Positions 48,408 through 54,229 of a stretch of DNA of 64,000 nt are shown in pieces. The stretch spans positions 124,001 through 188,000 of the forward strand of contig ABHC01000004.1 in the NCBI GenBank assembly GCA_000171835.1. Reading direction: 5' to 3'. This DNA is from an alpha proteobacterium BAL199. Its GTDB lineage: Bacteria > Pseudomonadota > Alphaproteobacteria > Thalassobaculales > Thalassobaculaceae. Within the stretch, counting starts at the first letter, position 1; each line of letters opens with the position of its first letter. A program made the position numbers and the translations under genes. The notes under the pieces were generated by a model. That model saw only the letters and a program-made list of their open reading frames with translations, searched no databases and had not been told where the DNA came from.

Positions 48408-48482
48408 CGCCTGGGCGGCGGCCCCGCGACAGTGGGCGCTCTGTTTCGCCGAGCCCTCCCCGTCGCCAAGGAATACCGTTCC

Positions 48483-50525
48483 GTGACCACGCTGCGCGTT
48501 GCCGTCGACATCGGCGGTACCTTCACCGACCTGCAGATCCTGGACGAGGCGACCGGTATCGCCCACGCCCACAAGGTCCCGACCACCCCGGCCGATCCGT
48601 CGGAAGGCCTGATCACCGGAATCCGGGAGGCGTGCGCGCAGCTTGGCGTCGGGCTTGAGCGGATCGGTGCAATCCTGCATGGCACCACCATCGCCACCAA
48701 CGCGGTGCTGCAGCGCCGCCTGCCCGACGGCGCGGTCATCACCACCGCCGGCTTCACCGATGTTCTGGAAATCGGCCGGCACCTGCGGCGCAAGGTGTAC
48801 GCCAACCGGGCCGAGCCGCGAGCGCTGCTGGTGCCGCGTTCCCGCCGGTTCGGGGTGGTCGAGCGGGTGCGCGCCGACGGATCGGTCGAGACCGCGCTGG
48901 ACGAGGCGTCGGTGCGGGCCGCTGCGGAGAAGGTGCGCGACAGCGGGGCGACAGCGGTGGCGATCGCCTTCCTGCACGCCTACGCCAATCCCGACCACGA
49001 GCGCCGCGCGGCGGAGATCGTCCAGCAGATGCTGCCGGACGCTTTCGTATCCTGCAGCCATCAGGTCAGCCCCGAGATCCGGGAGTTCGAGCGCACGTCG
49101 ACCACCGTGCTGAACGCCCTGCTGATGCCGGTGGTGAAGACCTACCTGTCGAAGCTGAAGGGCCGGCTGGCCGATGCGGGGGTCCGCGCACCGGTCTATC
49201 TGGTGCAGTCGAACGGCGGGGTGACGACCCCGGAGATCGCCGGCGAGCAGCCGGCGCGGCTGCTGTTGTCCGGCCCGTCCGGCGGGGCGCGGGCGGCCGA
49301 GGTGCTGTCCGCCGAACTGGCCGAGCCGAATCTGATCGCGGTCGACATGGGCGGCACCTCCTACGACGTGTCGATCGTCCACGATGGGGCGATCCGACTG
49401 GTCACCCAAGGCGATGTCGATGGCCTGCCGGTGCGGCTGCCGATGATCGAGATCCGCACCATCGGGGCCGGCGGTGGATCGATCGCCTCGGTCGACCAGA
49501 CCGGGCGCCTGCATGTCGGCCCGAACAGCGCAGGAGCGCGGCCGGGACCGGTCGCCTATCGCCGTGGCGGCGAGGAGCCGACGGTGACCGACGCCAACGT
49601 CGCGCTGGGCCGCATCGACCCGGACTATTTCCTGGGCGGGGCGATGGACCTGGACGTGGATGGCGCCAGGCGGGCGCTGGCCGACCGGGTGGCAACGCCG
49701 CTGGGCCTGGAGCCGGGACCGGCCGCCGACGGCGTGGTGGCGGTGGCGACCGCGCACATGGCGGCGGCAATCCGGCTCAGCTTGTTCGAGAAGGGCCTCG
49801 ACCCGAAGGATTTCGCGCTGATCTCGTTCGGCGGGGCCGGCGGCCTGCACGCCTGCGACACCGCGGCGGAGATCGGTACCGGCCGGGTGGTGTTTCCGCG
49901 CGACCCCGGCACGCTCAGTGCCTGGGGCATGCTGTTCGGCGACGTGGTCCACGACCTCGCGCGCTCGCGGCTCGTGGTGGCGGATGCGTCGGCTGTGCCG
50001 GCGCTGGAGGCCGTGGTGGCGGAACTGCGCGACGAGGCGACCGCGTTGCTTGGTCGGGACGGTATCGCCGAGACCGACCGCGCCTATCCGGTCACCCTGG
50101 ACCTGCGCTACCCGGGTCAGGCCTACGAGATCGGCGTGACCTTGGCGGAGCCGTCGGCTTTGGCCGAGGCGGTGGCGGCGTTCCACGATGCCCATGAGCG
50201 GCAGTACGCCCACGCCGAACGCCATGTGGTGCCGGAGATCGTGACCGTCCGCATGGCGGCGACCGGCCGTCTGACCCGTCCGGGCACGCGGCCGTTCGAC
50301 GTTGCGTCCGGCGGGCAACCGAAGGGCAGGCGCACGATCCGCGTCGCCGGCGCCGAGCGCGACGCCGCAGTGTGGGAGCGCGCCGCGATCGGCACCGACC
50401 TCGCCATCGACGGCCCGGCGATCGTCGAGGAACCGCATTCGACCCTGCTGGTCCCGCCCGGCTGGCGGCTGACCGCGCATCCGACCGGCGCCCTGATCGC
50501 CGTCCGCACCGTGAAGGAGGCCTGA
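48483..50525 (+). CDS. hyuA: Hydantoinase/oxoprolinase family protein, subunit A
   Basis: A 680-residue protein from GTG 48483; AGGA lies about ten bases upstream. It has the acetate-kinase-like ATP sites VAVDIGGTFTDLQILDEATG and LIAVDMGGTSYDVSIVHDG, plus LHGTTIATNAVLQRRLPDG and RTIGAGGGSIASVDQTGRLH. These enzymes open hydantoin or 5-oxoproline-type lactams at the cost of ATP, or carboxylate ketones, together with subunit B. The start of hyuB lies two bases after its stop. Confidence 0.92.
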   Translation: MTTLRVAVDIGGTFTDLQILDEATGIAHAHKVPTTPADPSEGLITGIREACAQLGVGLERIGAILHGTTIATNAVLQRRLPDGAVITTAGFTDVLEIGRHLRRKVYANRAEPRALLVPRSRRFGVVERVRADGSVETALDEASVRAAAEKVRDSGATAVAIAFLHAYANPDHERRAAEIVQQMLPDAFVSCSHQVSPEIREFERTSTTVLNALLMPVVKTYLSKLKGRLADAGVRAPVYLVQSNGGVTTPEIAGEQPARLLLSGPSGGARAAEVLSAELAEPNLIAVDMGGTSYDVSIVHDGAIRLVTQGDVDGLPVRLPMIEIRTIGAGGGSIASVDQTGRLHVGPNSAGARPGPVAYRRGGEEPTVTDANVALGRIDPDYFLGGAMDLDVDGARRALADRVATPLGLEPGPAADGVVAVATAHMAAAIRLSLFEKGLDPKDFALISFGGAGGLHACDTAAEIGTGRVVFPRDPGTLSAWGMLFGDVVHDLARSRLVVADASAVPALEAVVAELRDEATALLGRDGIAETDRAYPVTLDLRYPGQAYEIGVTLAEPSALAEAVAAFHDAHERQYAHAERHVVPEIVTVRMAATGRLTRPGTRPFDVASGGQPKGRRTIRVAGAERDAAVWERAAIGTDLAIDGPAIVEEPHSTLLVPPGWRLTAHPTGALIAVRTVKEA

Positions 50526-50527
50526 TC

Positions 50528-52192
50528 ATGGGCGAGTTCAACCCCACCCCGCTTGGGCCGATCCAGGTGGAGATCATCCGCAACGCCCTTGTGGCGGCGG
50601 CGGAGGAGATGAGCGTCACGGTATGGCGGACCAGCCGCAGCTCGGTGGTGCGCGAGATCCTCGACTACTCGATCACCGTGTTCGATGCCGAGGGCCGCAG
50701 CACCGCCCAGTCGGCCGCGATGCCGGTGCATCTGAACTCGATGCCGACCTGCTTGGAGGAAATCCTGGCCAACCACATCCCGATCGAGGAGTGGCACGAC
50801 GGCGACATCATCATCACCAACGATCCCTATGCCGGCGGCCAGCACCTGCCGGACATCCAGACCTTCAAGCCGGTGTTCCTGGACGGTGAGCGCATCGCCA
50901 TCGCCGGGATCCTGGTCCATCACCTGGACGTCGGCGGCGGAGCGGCCGGCTCCTACGACGCGGGTGCCACCGAGATCTATCAGGAAGGCTTCCGCATCCC
51001 GCCGCTGAAACTGGCCGAAGGGGGAAAGCGCAACGAGGCGGTCATCAAGCTGCTGCTGCGCAACAGCCGCGAGCCGGTCAACGTCGGCGGCGATTTCGCT
51101 TCCCAGTTGGCGGCCCTGGACACCGGCGTCGCCAACCTGCAGCGCATCGGCCGTCGCTATGGTGCCGCCACGCTCAAGGCGGCGACCGACCGCATCCAGG
51201 CGCAGTCGGAAGCCGCCATGCGCGCCGCCATCGCGCGGATTCCCGATGGCACCTACCGGTTTCATGACTTCGTCGACGATGACGGCATCGAGCGCGACCG
51301 GCCGCTGAAGGTCGACGTGGCGCTGACCGTTGACGGCGACTCGGTGATCGTCGACCTCGGCGGGTCGTCGGACCAGGCGGTCGGACCGGTCAACTGCACC
51401 CTGAACATGAGCCGATCGGCGGTGATCTGCGGCGTGATGATGGCGCTTGGCGCCGACATTCCGGCGAACGCCGGCTGCTATCGCCCGGTGATCGTCAAGG
51501 CCCCGGAGGGACTGGTCGTGAACGCCCGTTCGCCGGCGCCGGTGGCGAACCGCATGGCGACAGGGCACCGGATCGTCACCACGGTGCTGGGGGCGTTCGC
51601 GGAGGCGATGCCGGGGCAGGTGCCGGCGGCCTATTACGGCGTGAGCTACGCGTACGCGCTGAACTGCTTCCTGGCCGATGGCCGGCGGCAGGTCTATTTC
51701 GACCTGGAGTGCGGCGGCTGGGGCGCGCATCCGGAGGAGGACGGCGCCAGCGGTTTCTCCTGCGGGTTCCACAACATTGCCAACGCGCCGATCGAGATGC
51801 TGGAGAACACCCTGCCGCTCACCTTCACCGAATACGGCCTGGTGCCGGATAGCGGCGGGTTGGGGCGGACGCGCGGCGGGCTTGGCCTGGCGCGGGCGTT
51901 CCGGCTCGACGCACCCCAGGGCGTGTTCGCCGCCAACCTGGAGCGCTTCAAGTTCGCTCCCTACGGCTTGGCCGGCGGGGAGGCGGGGCGGCCGGGGCGC
52001 TTGACGATCACCCGTAAGGGTTCACCGGCGCCGGAAGACCTGCCGTCGAAGCTGGTGGACCTGAAGGTTTCGCGCGGCGATGTTCTGCGCCTGCAGACGG
52101 CGGGTGGCGGCGGGTATGGCGATCCGGCGGAGCGGTCGCAGACGTCGGTCGTGCGTGATCTCACGGAAGGCTACACGACCGACGCCGCGTGA
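50528..52192 (+). CDS. hyuB: Hydantoinase/oxoprolinase family protein, subunit B
   Basis: A 554-residue protein from ATG 50528 with GGAGG seven bases upstream. Landmarks are NALVAAAEEMSVTVWRTSRS, AMPVHLNSMPTCLEEILANH, GDIIITNDPYAGGQHLPDIQ with the metal-binding Asp-Pro, and LVHHLDVGGGAAGSYDAGAT. The C-terminal LRLQTAGGGGYGDPAER closes the family pattern. It acts as a complex with the HyuA protein. The exact lactam or ketone substrate is not predictable. Confidence 0.92.
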   Translation: MGEFNPTPLGPIQVEIIRNALVAAAEEMSVTVWRTSRSSVVREILDYSITVFDAEGRSTAQSAAMPVHLNSMPTCLEEILANHIPIEEWHDGDIIITNDPYAGGQHLPDIQTFKPVFLDGERIAIAGILVHHLDVGGGAAGSYDAGATEIYQEGFRIPPLKLAEGGKRNEAVIKLLLRNSREPVNVGGDFASQLAALDTGVANLQRIGRRYGAATLKAATDRIQAQSEAAMRAAIARIPDGTYRFHDFVDDDGIERDRPLKVDVALTVDGDSVIVDLGGSSDQAVGPVNCTLNMSRSAVICGVMMALGADIPANAGCYRPVIVKAPEGLVVNARSPAPVANRMATGHRIVTTVLGAFAEAMPGQVPAAYYGVSYAYALNCFLADGRRQVYFDLECGGWGAHPEEDGASGFSCGFHNIANAPIEMLENTLPLTFTEYGLVPDSGGLGRTRGGLGLARAFRLDAPQGVFAANLERFKFAPYGLAGGEAGRPGRLTITRKGSPAPEDLPSKLVDLKVSRGDVLRLQTAGGGGYGDPAERSQTSVVRDLTEGYTTDAA

Positions 52193-52199
52193 TTGGATG

Positions 52200-52547
52200 T
52201 CACGAGGGCAGGCCGGGCTTTTGCATTCCGGCAGTCTGCTCGTGCACCCAGCCCTCACCGGCCGAGACGATGCAGGTCGGTCCACCGGGAATGGTGATGG
52301 CGATGGTCCAGGTGCCGGTCTGGGTGTTGGTGTAGACCTGGACGAAACCGCCATTGGCGTCGACGCCGGCGGCGGTCAGCACCTCGCCGTATTCCTTGCC
52401 GAGTTGAGCGACCAGGGCGGTAGCCTGCGGAGCGCATACCCTGGCAGCCTGAGAATTGGCCTGACTGATGCCAAAGGGCATCAGAGCCAGGGTCACCACG
52501 CTCGCCAATACTGCCGTTCTGGCAAAATTCGTGCGATTCCGTGTCAT
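52200..52547 (-). CDS. Small exported protein, copy 1 of a tandem pair
   Basis: A 115-residue protein with signal peptide (RTAVLASVVTLALMPFGISQ, cleaved near NSQA). The mature part has VCAPQATALVAQLGKEYGEV, VDANGGFVQVYTNTQTGTWT and IAITIPGGPTCIVSAGEGW, with two cysteines likely bridged. It is clearly paralogous to the protein at 52746-53099. It resembles a common but uncharacterised alphaproteobacterial family ending in C-I-V-x-x-G-E-G-W. AGGA lies nine bases upstream, directly after the two-hairpin leader at 52564-52607. Confidence 0.75.
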   Translation of the reverse strand: MTRNRTNFARTAVLASVVTLALMPFGISQANSQAARVCAPQATALVAQLGKEYGEVLTAAGVDANGGFVQVYTNTQTGTWTIAITIPGGPTCIVSAGEGWVHEQTAGMQKPGLPS

Positions 52548-52563
52548 GACCCACTTCCTTTCC

Positions 52564-52607
52564 GGGATCGTCGGCCGATCCCTTGCTACGACTTTCTGTC
52601 GTCGTAG
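52564..52607 (-). ncRNA. Two-hairpin 5' leader of copy 1
   Basis: Read on the minus strand, hairpin A pairs CTACGAC with GTCGTAG (52607-52586, 8-base loop). Three bases later hairpin B pairs GGGATCG with CGATCCC around loop GCCGA (52582-52564). GGAAAGGAAGTGGGTC then leads to the ATG. Both stems are perfect 7-bp helices. The same arrangement precedes copy 2 with compensatory differences, so a structured leader RNA is likely. Confidence 0.62.
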
Positions 52608-52745
52608 GATAAATGTGGGGAGAACTTGACGTTATGCCAACTATGTCCTCGCCGTATTGTGATGGTGACGGGGAATTGCTAACAAATCGTTGCGGAACAG
52701 CCTGGGCGAGTCTTTATTTTCTCGCTCCGCCGACCGCCGTTGTTG

Positions 52746-53099
52746 TCAGGACGCCAGATCGGGGCGGCGCGCGGGTTTCGGAACATCGGCCAACTGCCGG
52801 TCGCTCCAGCCCTCACCGGATGACACGATGCAACTCGGGCCGCCGGGAAGTGTCACGGCAATGGTCCAGCTTCCGGTATCCGGCGACGAGTAGACCTGGA
52901 CCAGGTTGCCGTTGCCGTCGACACCCTCGGCGCTGATGGCTTCGCCATACTGGCTGCCGAGCTTTGCCGAGAGTTTGTCCTGCGGTGCGCATACCGATGG
53001 TGTCTGCGCCGCGGCGGGCTGAATGCCCATGAAGACTGACAGGATCATCGTGCCGGAGATCGCTGCCGATGCGGCGAGATGCTTGCGGAGCCCAGTCAT
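52746..53099 (-). CDS. Small exported protein, copy 2 of a tandem pair
   Basis: A 117-residue protein from ATG 53099 with signal peptide (AASAAISGTMILSVFMGIQP, cleaved near AAAQT). The mature part VCAPQDKLSAKLGSQYGEAI, VDGNGNLVQVYSSPDTGSWT and IAVTLPGGPSCIVSSGEGW aligns with copy 1 along its length, including both cysteines and the GEGW motif. The two copies lie in tandem 198 bases apart, each with its own two-hairpin leader. Divergence at the N- and C-termini shows that the duplication is not very recent. Confidence 0.75.
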   Translation of the reverse strand: MTGLRKHLAASAAISGTMILSVFMGIQPAAAQTPSVCAPQDKLSAKLGSQYGEAISAEGVDGNGNLVQVYSSPDTGSWTIAVTLPGGPSCIVSSGEGWSDRQLADVPKPARRPDLAS

Positions 53100-53116
53100 G
53101 ATCCAACACCCTTTCC

Positions 53117-53158
53117 GGAACCGTCGGCCGGTTCCCTGCCACGGCGCTGCCGCCGTAG
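53117..53158 (-). ncRNA. Two-hairpin 5' leader of copy 2
   Basis: On the minus strand hairpin A' pairs CTACGGC with GCCGTGG (53158-53139, one U-G pair), three bases follow, then hairpin B' pairs GGAACCG with CGGTTCC around loop GCCGA (53135-53117). GGAAAGGGTGTTGGATC leads to the ATG. Relative to copy 1, one pair in A and two pairs in B have changed on both sides so that pairing is kept. Confidence 0.62.
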
Positions 53159-53452
53159 ATGTTCCATGCCGAGCCTGGGTTTTCTCCAGTGCCCCGCAGG
53201 AAACACGCGCGATGTCGTTCCAATACCCTAAATAAAATCTGCTTCGAGGCGGTTCGTGTCTTGTCGGCGTGAGGTCTGTGCTCCGCCGGTGCCTTCGAGT
53301 ACTGACGGCATGCACGGCTCAACCGGATAATTACGCAACGTTCCACTGACGACTTGGTTGCATGACAGCCATCGCGTTCGGATGCATCAGGGCCGTTGCG
53401 GCACGCCGGAGAGCATGCTTGGCTGCAGGTGCATCTCAGGAGATCCTCACCC
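53159..53452. other. Intergenic region upstream of copy 2 and the aldolase gene
   Basis: Divergent region without a credible gene. It must hold promoters for the exported protein (minus) and the HpcH aldolase (plus). The only notable motif is GGAAC on the minus strand (53344-53340) with CGGTT 14 bases downstream, near but not matching the spacing of alphaproteobacterial EcfG promoters. Confidence 0.35.
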
Positions 53453-54229
53453 ATGTTTCGCAAGAATCACTTGAAAGCCATCATCGCTGCCGATGAGCCA
53501 GCCCATGGCGTCTGGTTGCAGCTTGGCGAGCCGTCGATCGCCGAAATCGCCAGCCTGTGCGGCTACGACTTCCTGATCCTGGACAACGAGCACGGCCCGG
53601 CCGCGCTGGAGACCACCGTGCATTCGATGCGCGCCGCGCAAGCCGGCCGGGCTACCGTTCTGGTGCGGGTCCCGGGGCAGGATCCCGACTACCTGAAGCG
53701 CGTGCTGGACGCCGGCGCCGAAGCGATCATGGTGCCGATGGTCGAGACGGCCGAGCAGGCCCGTGCCGTGGTCGCGGCCTGCAAGTATCCGCCGACCGGG
53801 CGACGCGGCTATTCCGCGCCGACCGTGCGGGCGTCCGGCTACGGTGCCGACCCCGAATACGCGGCCAAGGCCAACGACGAGTTGTTCATCTGCGTCCAGA
53901 TCGAGTCGGACAAGGCGGTCGAGCAGGCCGGCGCGATCGCCGCGGTCGAGGGTGTCGACATGGTGTTCATCGGCGTCGCCGATCTGTCCGGCTCGATCGG
54001 CCTGCTTGGCCAGCCGGGGCGGCCGGAGGTCGATGCTCAGATCCGCAAAGCGGAAGCGGCGGTGAAGGCGGCGGGCAAGCCGCTCGGCACCATCCCGCGG
54101 CCGGGCCACAGCATGGTCGACCTGGCGGCGGAAGGGTACCGGCTGCTGGCCGGCATCGCGGATTCCGGGGCCCTGCGCGCGGCCTTCACGGCCGACGTGG
54201 CGGCATTCGCCCCGGCGAAGAAGAAGTAG
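53453..54229 (+). CDS. HpcH/HpaI family aldolase
   Basis: A 258-residue class II pyruvate aldolase from ATG 53453 with AGGAG eleven bases upstream. Landmarks are HGVWLQLGEPSIAEIASLCG, FLILDNEHGPAALET with the acidic and His residues, AIMVPMVETAEQARAVV, RRGYSAPTVRASGYG, the metal-binding VQIESDKAV and VFIGVADLSGSIGL. Such enzymes cleave 4-hydroxy-2-oxo acids to pyruvate and an aldehyde. Nothing adjacent identifies the substrate. Confidence 0.9.
   Translation: MFRKNHLKAIIAADEPAHGVWLQLGEPSIAEIASLCGYDFLILDNEHGPAALETTVHSMRAAQAGRATVLVRVPGQDPDYLKRVLDAGAEAIMVPMVETAEQARAVVAACKYPPTGRRGYSAPTVRASGYGADPEYAAKANDELFICVQIESDKAVEQAGAIAAVEGVDMVFIGVADLSGSIGLLGQPGRPEVDAQIRKAEAAVKAAGKPLGTIPRPGHSMVDLAAEGYRLLAGIADSGALRAAFTADVAAFAPAKKK

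Follow-up and report, generated by a model that had tools for sequence, protein, structure and literature searches.

The window analyzed here, a stretch of 64,000 nucleotides (64 kb) from the alpha proteobacterium BAL199, belongs to a 6.1-Mb genome assembled in 69 contigs and is of the same genus as Thalassobaculum fulvum. Two small paralogous genes lie in tandem on its minus strand, gene 2 (protein P0002, 117 amino acids; positions 52746 to 53099) upstream and gene 1 (protein P0001, 115 amino acids; 52200 to 52547) downstream; P0001 is a small exported protein of the phrog_25396 family, and the two products are 50% identical. On the plus strand, Pfam matches and synteny identified the genes for hydantoinase A (hyuA, 48480 to 50525) and hydantoinase B (hyuB, 50570 to 52192), both with approximate starts, and for an HpcH/HpaI aldolase (53453 to 54229). 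The aldolase gene is a divergent neighbor, hyuA is a conserved neighbor, and hyuB is the conserved convergent neighbor that marks the hairpin-bearing locus.

Both minus-strand leaders (52564 to 52607 and 53117 to 53158) were seen by direct reading to contain two 7-bp hairpins immediately 5′ of the purine-rich sequence GGAAAGG. Leader 1 consists, in order, of hairpin 1 (CTACGAC-GACAGAAA-GTCGTAG, with an 8-nucleotide loop; 52586 to 52607), CAA, hairpin 2 (GGGATCG-GCCGA-CGATCCC; 52564 to 52582), the Shine-Dalgarno purine-rich tract GGAAAGGA (52556 to 52563), and the ATG at 52547; there are 0 nucleotides between hairpin 2 and the tract and 16 between hairpin 2 and the ATG. Leader 2 consists of hairpin 1 (CTACGGC-GGCAGC-GCCGTGG; 53139 to 53158), CAG, hairpin 2 (GGAACCG-GCCGA-CGGTTCC; 53117 to 53135), the tract GGAAAGGG (53109 to 53116), and the ATG at 53099, 17 nucleotides from hairpin 2. 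The layout before each tandem gene and the compensated stem pairs between the leaders were thus as given in the preliminary description, and the one U-G pair in hairpin 1 of leader 2 is, as it had stated, possible in the minus-strand RNA, that is, in the coding strand. The GGAAAGG sequence, which it had included in the pattern, is present in both leaders but is an ordinary Shine-Dalgarno tract and not a special element: GAAAGG precedes 18 of the 43 homologues outside the hairpin group, a tract similar to that of gene 1 being found before hairpin-less homologues, and its conservation therefore needs no particular cause. Farther upstream, at about 52672 to 52695 on the minus strand (125 to 150 nucleotides 5′ of gene 1), there is a loosely common stretch like GCGATTTGTNA, and similar stretches occur at similar places upstream in several Thalassobaculum, in bin.590, and in Nisaea. 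This stretch may be a promoter or a site resembling the CtrA motif.

How often such hairpins arise by chance depends on the pairs that are allowed. Leader 1 was the sole case in the 64 kb of two perfect 7-bp Watson-Crick hairpins 0 to 6 nucleotides apart, and the mean number of such doubles in 20 Markov-simulated sequences was 0.6; when G-U pairs were allowed, there were 76 double-hairpin placements on the plus strand and 53 on the minus strand, against a simulated mean of 38. Because G-U doubles are so common, a single leader is unremarkable, and the case depends on comparison across relatives. The pattern of hairpin 2 plus GGAAAGG, with no more than 3 mismatches, was seen at two places in the window, where 0.07 would be expected, and at 17 in the whole genome, compared with 3 for a reversed control pattern; the only zero-mismatch copies in the genome were the two window leaders. 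Five of the other 15 genome matches were read, and two of these, judged by eye, are presumably chemotaxis-receptor coding sequence.

The genus yielded five leaders, namely the window pair, a further two from T. fulvum, and a single one from the MAG M30B52; in four of these, strong pairing has been preserved by compensatory changes. In their alignment the proposed 14 pairs were formed in 87.1% of cells (reached in 6 of 500 shuffles), 4 pairs were altered on both sides (18 of 500), and the covariation score was equalled in 6 of 500 shuffles. The covariation check was not favorable throughout, however; while the score and the both-sided changes were rarely matched, the count of pair types was not above that of the shuffles (432 of 500). 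Pairings slid out of the proposed register were lower than the proposed pairing on every measure. RNAalifold returned both proposed stems, the first lengthened inward by one pair, with a slightly unfavorable covariation term of +0.68. The pairing is not complete in T. fulvum: the three outer pairs of hairpin 1 are gone from copy 1, and in copy 2 only 5 and 4 of the 7 pairs remain in register and hairpin 2 is absent from the local fold. We also carried out a neutral simulation on the tree with independent sites, in which the observed 51 of 56 Watson-Crick pairs of four leaders had a P of 2.3e-4 and, with G-U included, 53 of 56 pairs had a P of 3.5e-3; as the four leaders, which omit T. fulvum copy 2 and bin.590, were picked after seeing the data, these P values flatter the case. 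For hairpin 2 alone, the change between the two window leaders (P1 to P2) gave a P of 0.018 for Watson-Crick pairs and 0.15 with G-U, so single comparisons are weak.

A covariance model for which only the two window leaders were used (R2) was run on seven genomes and found the leader of T. fulvum copy 1 (63.9 bits, E 1.9e-12) and that of M30B52 (30.6 bits, E 5.2e-4; next match 25.0 bits). T. fulvum copy 2 was not found at E ≤ 1, with 150 of the 163 first-look candidates of that genome scored, and the model thus recovered two of the three other genus leaders. A second model (R1), built from all five genus leaders, was run on 36 family genomes and 289 class genomes, and first-look candidates of each genome, up to 150 for the family and up to 20 for the class, were scored. 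In the family genomes the five genus leaders gave 51 to 70 bits, which holds by construction because those leaders built R1, and none other among the scored candidates exceeded 32 bits; in the class genomes the best other score among the scored candidates was 27.3 bits. A wider spread of the motif was rejected, as all 16 of the weaker R1 matches that were opened were spanned by an open frame longer than 750 nucleotides on one or other strand; such long open frames in GC-rich DNA suggest that the weaker matches are coding sequence. The covariation shuffles, the neutral simulation, and the blind recovery of leaders by R2 all back the earlier claim of selection on RNA pairing. We conclude that selection very probably acts on the leader at the RNA level, a conclusion that is well supported but drawn from few sequences. 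The control of stability or translation raised in the preliminary description is plausible.

The gene adjoins hyuB in T. fulvum (copy 1), M30B52, bin.590, and SI072, as it does in the window. In all six intact leaders of this locus (the two in the window and one from each of these four), the 3′ arm of a hairpin abutted the first base of the purine tract and lay 16 to 17 nucleotides 5′ of the start codon; the energies ranged between −13.7 and −3.5 kcal/mol. A seventh copy, L067, was left out of the count as decayed and frameshifted. This frameshifted copy (L067, 1300 to 1760 of G013:C14) has a hairpin of about 4 bp by eye. The letters of the hairpin diverge between genera, being GAGCCG/CGGCTC in bin.590 and GGTCA/TGGCC (GGUCA/UGGCC in RNA) in SI072. 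By local folds or by reading, a second hairpin lay just 5′ in each locus leader, that of SI072 being weak and that of T. fulvum short. The flush hairpin of SI072 is also weak (−3.5 kcal/mol, equalled in 6 of 200 shuffles), and its leader had a folding z of −0.99.

Outside these copies the hairpin was generally absent. None of the five Nisaea leaders had a flush hairpin, and 3 of the 38 other homologues reached −4 kcal/mol or lower, none of them flush; L078, also among the 38, had a hairpin that was flush but weak (−1.8 kcal/mol). By the rule used, two of the five Nisaea leaders and one of the 38 others had no purine tract and were scored as hairpin-less in these counts. The tree, the folding z values, and the hairpin counts covered 50 of the 53 homologue leaders (proteins of at least 80 amino acids). 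Homologues lacking the hairpins, which the preliminary description regarded as evidence against selection on structure, were therefore encountered in Nisaea and among most other homologues examined, but not at the six intact copies of the hyuB locus. Mean leader folding z was −2.46 when bin.590 was taken together with the five genus leaders, 0.18 for Nisaea (n = 5), −0.35 for the other family genomes (n = 6, including SI072), and −0.27 for the class set (n = 33). Four leaders of the class set, from distant homologues outside the family (L074, L050, L075, and L077), were below −1.5 and folded better than shuffles, with z of −1.8 to −4.1; L074, L075, and L077 come from one family (f42), and none of the four has a flush hairpin at −4 kcal/mol. 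Nisaea leaders have the 5′ arm letters GGGAWC in common but not the 3′ arm. Predicted folds of Nisaea leaders showed a pairing that sequesters the Shine-Dalgarno tract; it was rejected, since none of these four folds surpassed the shuffles (z −0.43 to 0.83).

The protein tree put gene 1 together with T. fulvum copy 1 (97/79) and M30B52 together with gene 2 (96/85). As each gene grouped with a different relative, the duplication likely predates the species split, which suggests that the hairpins were kept in both lines. Nisaea was placed within the clade of those four (99/95), and the hairpin-bearing bin.590 was placed outside it. Because Nisaea nests inside the hairpin-bearing group, the hairpins were either lost in Nisaea or have arisen repeatedly, and no other fact weighs as heavily against their being strictly required.

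The reading that we favor, at a probability of roughly 0.4, is that each leader acts in cis, as an element of its own mRNA whose shape, independently of any ligand, sets the access of the ribosome to the message. That the register of the hairpin to the tract is exact, and that letters and loops vary, suggests a structural part in initiation and not a ligand aptamer. Hairpin 2 would be a rigid upstream border that fixes and limits the single-stranded RNA available to the 30S platform and, as a minor part of the proposal, would help to stop the tract from pairing elsewhere; hairpin 1 would supply spacing and impede nuclease attack from the 5′ side. The outcome would be a steady, probably moderate rate of initiation for the downstream exported protein. 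In those sections of Espah Borujeni et al. (PMC3936740) on which we draw, hairpins 5′ of the Shine-Dalgarno sequence shifted initiation in E. coli more than 100-fold, mainly in designed leaders, and a surface-area rule is given by which short flanks lead to less access; it is because of this rule that we propose a moderate rate and not a high one. The discussion in the same source raises co-axial stacking with the mRNA-rRNA duplex for the case of a zero gap. A clamp for ribosome docking, in which the flush hairpin would stack on or brace the mRNA-16S rRNA duplex and so fix the initiation rate of the exported protein, with only pairing and register and not letters being selected, we consider highly unlikely.

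With a hairpin close 5′ of the Shine-Dalgarno sequence, the leaders have the arrangement of a structured standby site. As in the modules of Espah Borujeni et al. (PMC3936740, in the sections drawn on here), the hairpin is followed by short single-stranded flanks and would be expected to set the initiation rate; unlike those modules, which were measured as designed E. coli leaders, the window leaders are a natural, conserved hairpin pair in fixed register, from a marine alphaproteobacterium, and are known from their sequence. An RNA thermometer would hide the Shine-Dalgarno sequence in a stem that opens as the temperature rises; here the tract lies outside both hairpins, though longer folds pair it in part, with mean unpaired probabilities of 0.46 in leader 1 and 0.64 in leader 2 and a range of 0.46 to 0.85 over five leaders, all at 37°C only; the gene 2 start codon was predicted to be paired (unpaired probability 0.00). 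When hairpin 2 was randomly disrupted, the predicted accessibility of the tract fell in three of five leaders (P2, T. fulvum copy 1, and M30B52), and re-pairing the arms mostly brought it back in those three. In window leader 1, breaking hairpin 2 raised predicted accessibility from 0.46 to 0.61-0.65, and in bin.590 disruption was predicted to have no clear effect. An anti-sequestrator switch, in which hairpin 2 would hold its own 3′ arm away from the tract, was therefore rejected: a single complement-swap was favorable to it in four of five leaders and randomized arms in three of five, leader 1 giving the opposite result. Also rejected was an outer closing stem enclosing both hairpins, seen in the predicted fold of leader 1, for which no matching arms were seen in T. 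fulvum copy 1.

Several other explanations were weighed against the proposal that the leader sets ribosome access by its shape. The hairpins might act as does the 5′ stabilizer of E. coli ompA, lying at or near the 5′ end of the message and blocking 5′-dependent decay, so that a long-lived message yields abundant exported protein. The order of the parts, two stem-loops and then a Shine-Dalgarno tract, is like that of ompA, in which stem-loops also stand before the Shine-Dalgarno sequence and the product is an envelope or exported protein; the likeness is one of architecture, read here from the DNA, and hairpin 2 of the window differs in being flush with the tract. The portions of two reviews used here (PMC7509114, PMC3997798) list 5′ stem-loops plus a strong Shine-Dalgarno sequence as stabilizing, ompA included. 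However, no promoter-like site was found on the coding strand, and what stays constant is how far hairpin 2 lies from the ribosome-binding tract, not how far it lies from a 5′ end; we therefore think a stabilizer of this kind unlikely.

Absence of any selected function, with the palindromic leaders simply inherited along with the gene and conserved through the closeness of the species, would accord with the small number of informative leaders (4-6, from one small family), with the weakness of single comparisons, and with the abundance of such hairpins in a GC-rich genome once G-U pairs are allowed. We judge it quite unlikely in view of the joint neutral simulation (P 2e-4 to 3.5e-3), the blind model recovery, and the fixed position of the hairpin in 6 of 6 intact locus copies.

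The leaders could instead be bound in trans by a protein or a small RNA, or form a riboswitch, so that the gene is switched on or off. The preliminary description had pointed to an identical GCCGA loop, which is indeed in both window leaders; its identity in three leaders overall speaks for such a reading, but it is common to only these three, and M30B52, T. fulvum copy 2, bin.590, and SI072 have other loop letters. Leader DNA is conserved at least as well as coding DNA (53 of 61 against 256 of 342 positions for P1 compared with T. fulvum copy 1, and 42 of 65 against 221 of 348 for P2 compared with M30B52), as such a site would be; strong leader conservation (64 of 66) is likewise seen in a Nisaea pair that lacks the hairpins, which counts against the reading that we favor. 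CsrA was found in none of the 23 same-family genomes examined, three genus genomes included, and in 1 of 37 overall, that one being outside the family. There were no matches to Rfam in the window at gathering thresholds, the best weak matches near the leaders being 14-15 bits against cut-offs of 37-70. The element was judged small for an aptamer and contains no terminator, and with no terminator-like sites within 52100 to 53460 there was nothing to indicate an attenuator. Regulation by such a factor or ligand therefore appears distinctly improbable.

Finally, the hairpins might be DNA palindromes, operators for a dimeric repressor near the start codon whose half-sites change together. A 19-bp dyad is a normal shape for an operator, and symmetric change could preserve dyad symmetry. 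The half-site letters of an operator would be expected to be constant; here the letters vary, and complementarity and register to the tract are kept. Nowhere else in the genome does the pattern occur without a mismatch, and two G-U pairs (in leader 2 and in M30B52) can pair only in the coding-strand RNA, though two cases are too few to weigh heavily. We regard operators as very improbable. Two further readings were rejected: translation of the leaders, since the open frame upstream through leader 1 contains no ATG, GTG, or TTG and that of the M30B52 leader has a stop 9 nucleotides upstream (leader 2 has an in-frame GTG 216 nucleotides upstream), and a mobile repeat, of which there were only two exact genome copies and no match in the plasmid collection.

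The earlier statement that no named motif has this pattern held for Rfam at its gathering threshold in the window, and no such element was seen among the listed open-licence papers on Thalassobaculum or on alphaproteobacterial or Rhodospirillales leader RNAs. The leaders resemble the candidate structured RNAs of alphaproteobacteria (PMC1273637, PMC2704228, as far as the parts used here describe them) in being structured RNA elements found computationally, and differ in that no Rfam family reached its gathering score here. The leader is a narrow new element within the broad kind of structured 5′ leaders, and not a new type of system. If ribosome access is indeed set in this way, the leaders would be a small test case in which evolution keeps the shape of a hairpin and its register flush with the tract, not its letters, and standby-site models derived from designed E. 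coli leaders could be checked against natural compensatory variation.

The locus also points to an uncharacterized family of exported proteins common to Alphaproteobacteria and phages. The family was present in 15 of 36 family genomes and 84 of 385 class genomes, class-wide loci being read among the matches listed. All 18 aligned members matched phrog_25396, a phage family of unknown function, and NCBIfam and Pfam gave only weak, scattered matches to the same 18. Structural comparison of the protein was uninformative: Foldseek found nothing at E ≤ 0.001, the best VIA-align Z was 6.4 across 50 residues, and the best E in a sequence search of solved structures was 0.71.

Relatives in phrog_25396 were seen at 10 viral loci (in the L141-L153 range), 6 of them distinct, and in 32 phage records (16 Rhodobacter, 10 Ruegeria, 2 Roseobacter, and 4 other). 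An amidase or lysozyme gene was nearby in 3 of the 6 distinct viral loci (L141, L146, and L148) and in one of three phage records, vB_ThpS-P1 having such a neighbor and V16 and RcSalem not. A second copy in bin.590 (L043) lies on a 3.7-kb MAG contig with a glycosyl hydrolase 108 gene directly 3′, which suggests that it is a prophage remnant. The viral members at L148-L150 have a lipobox-like MKWVAAISLLLVLGC at their start and may be lipoproteins; each is preceded by a short gene with, by eye, one membrane-like segment and a coiled-coil-like stretch.
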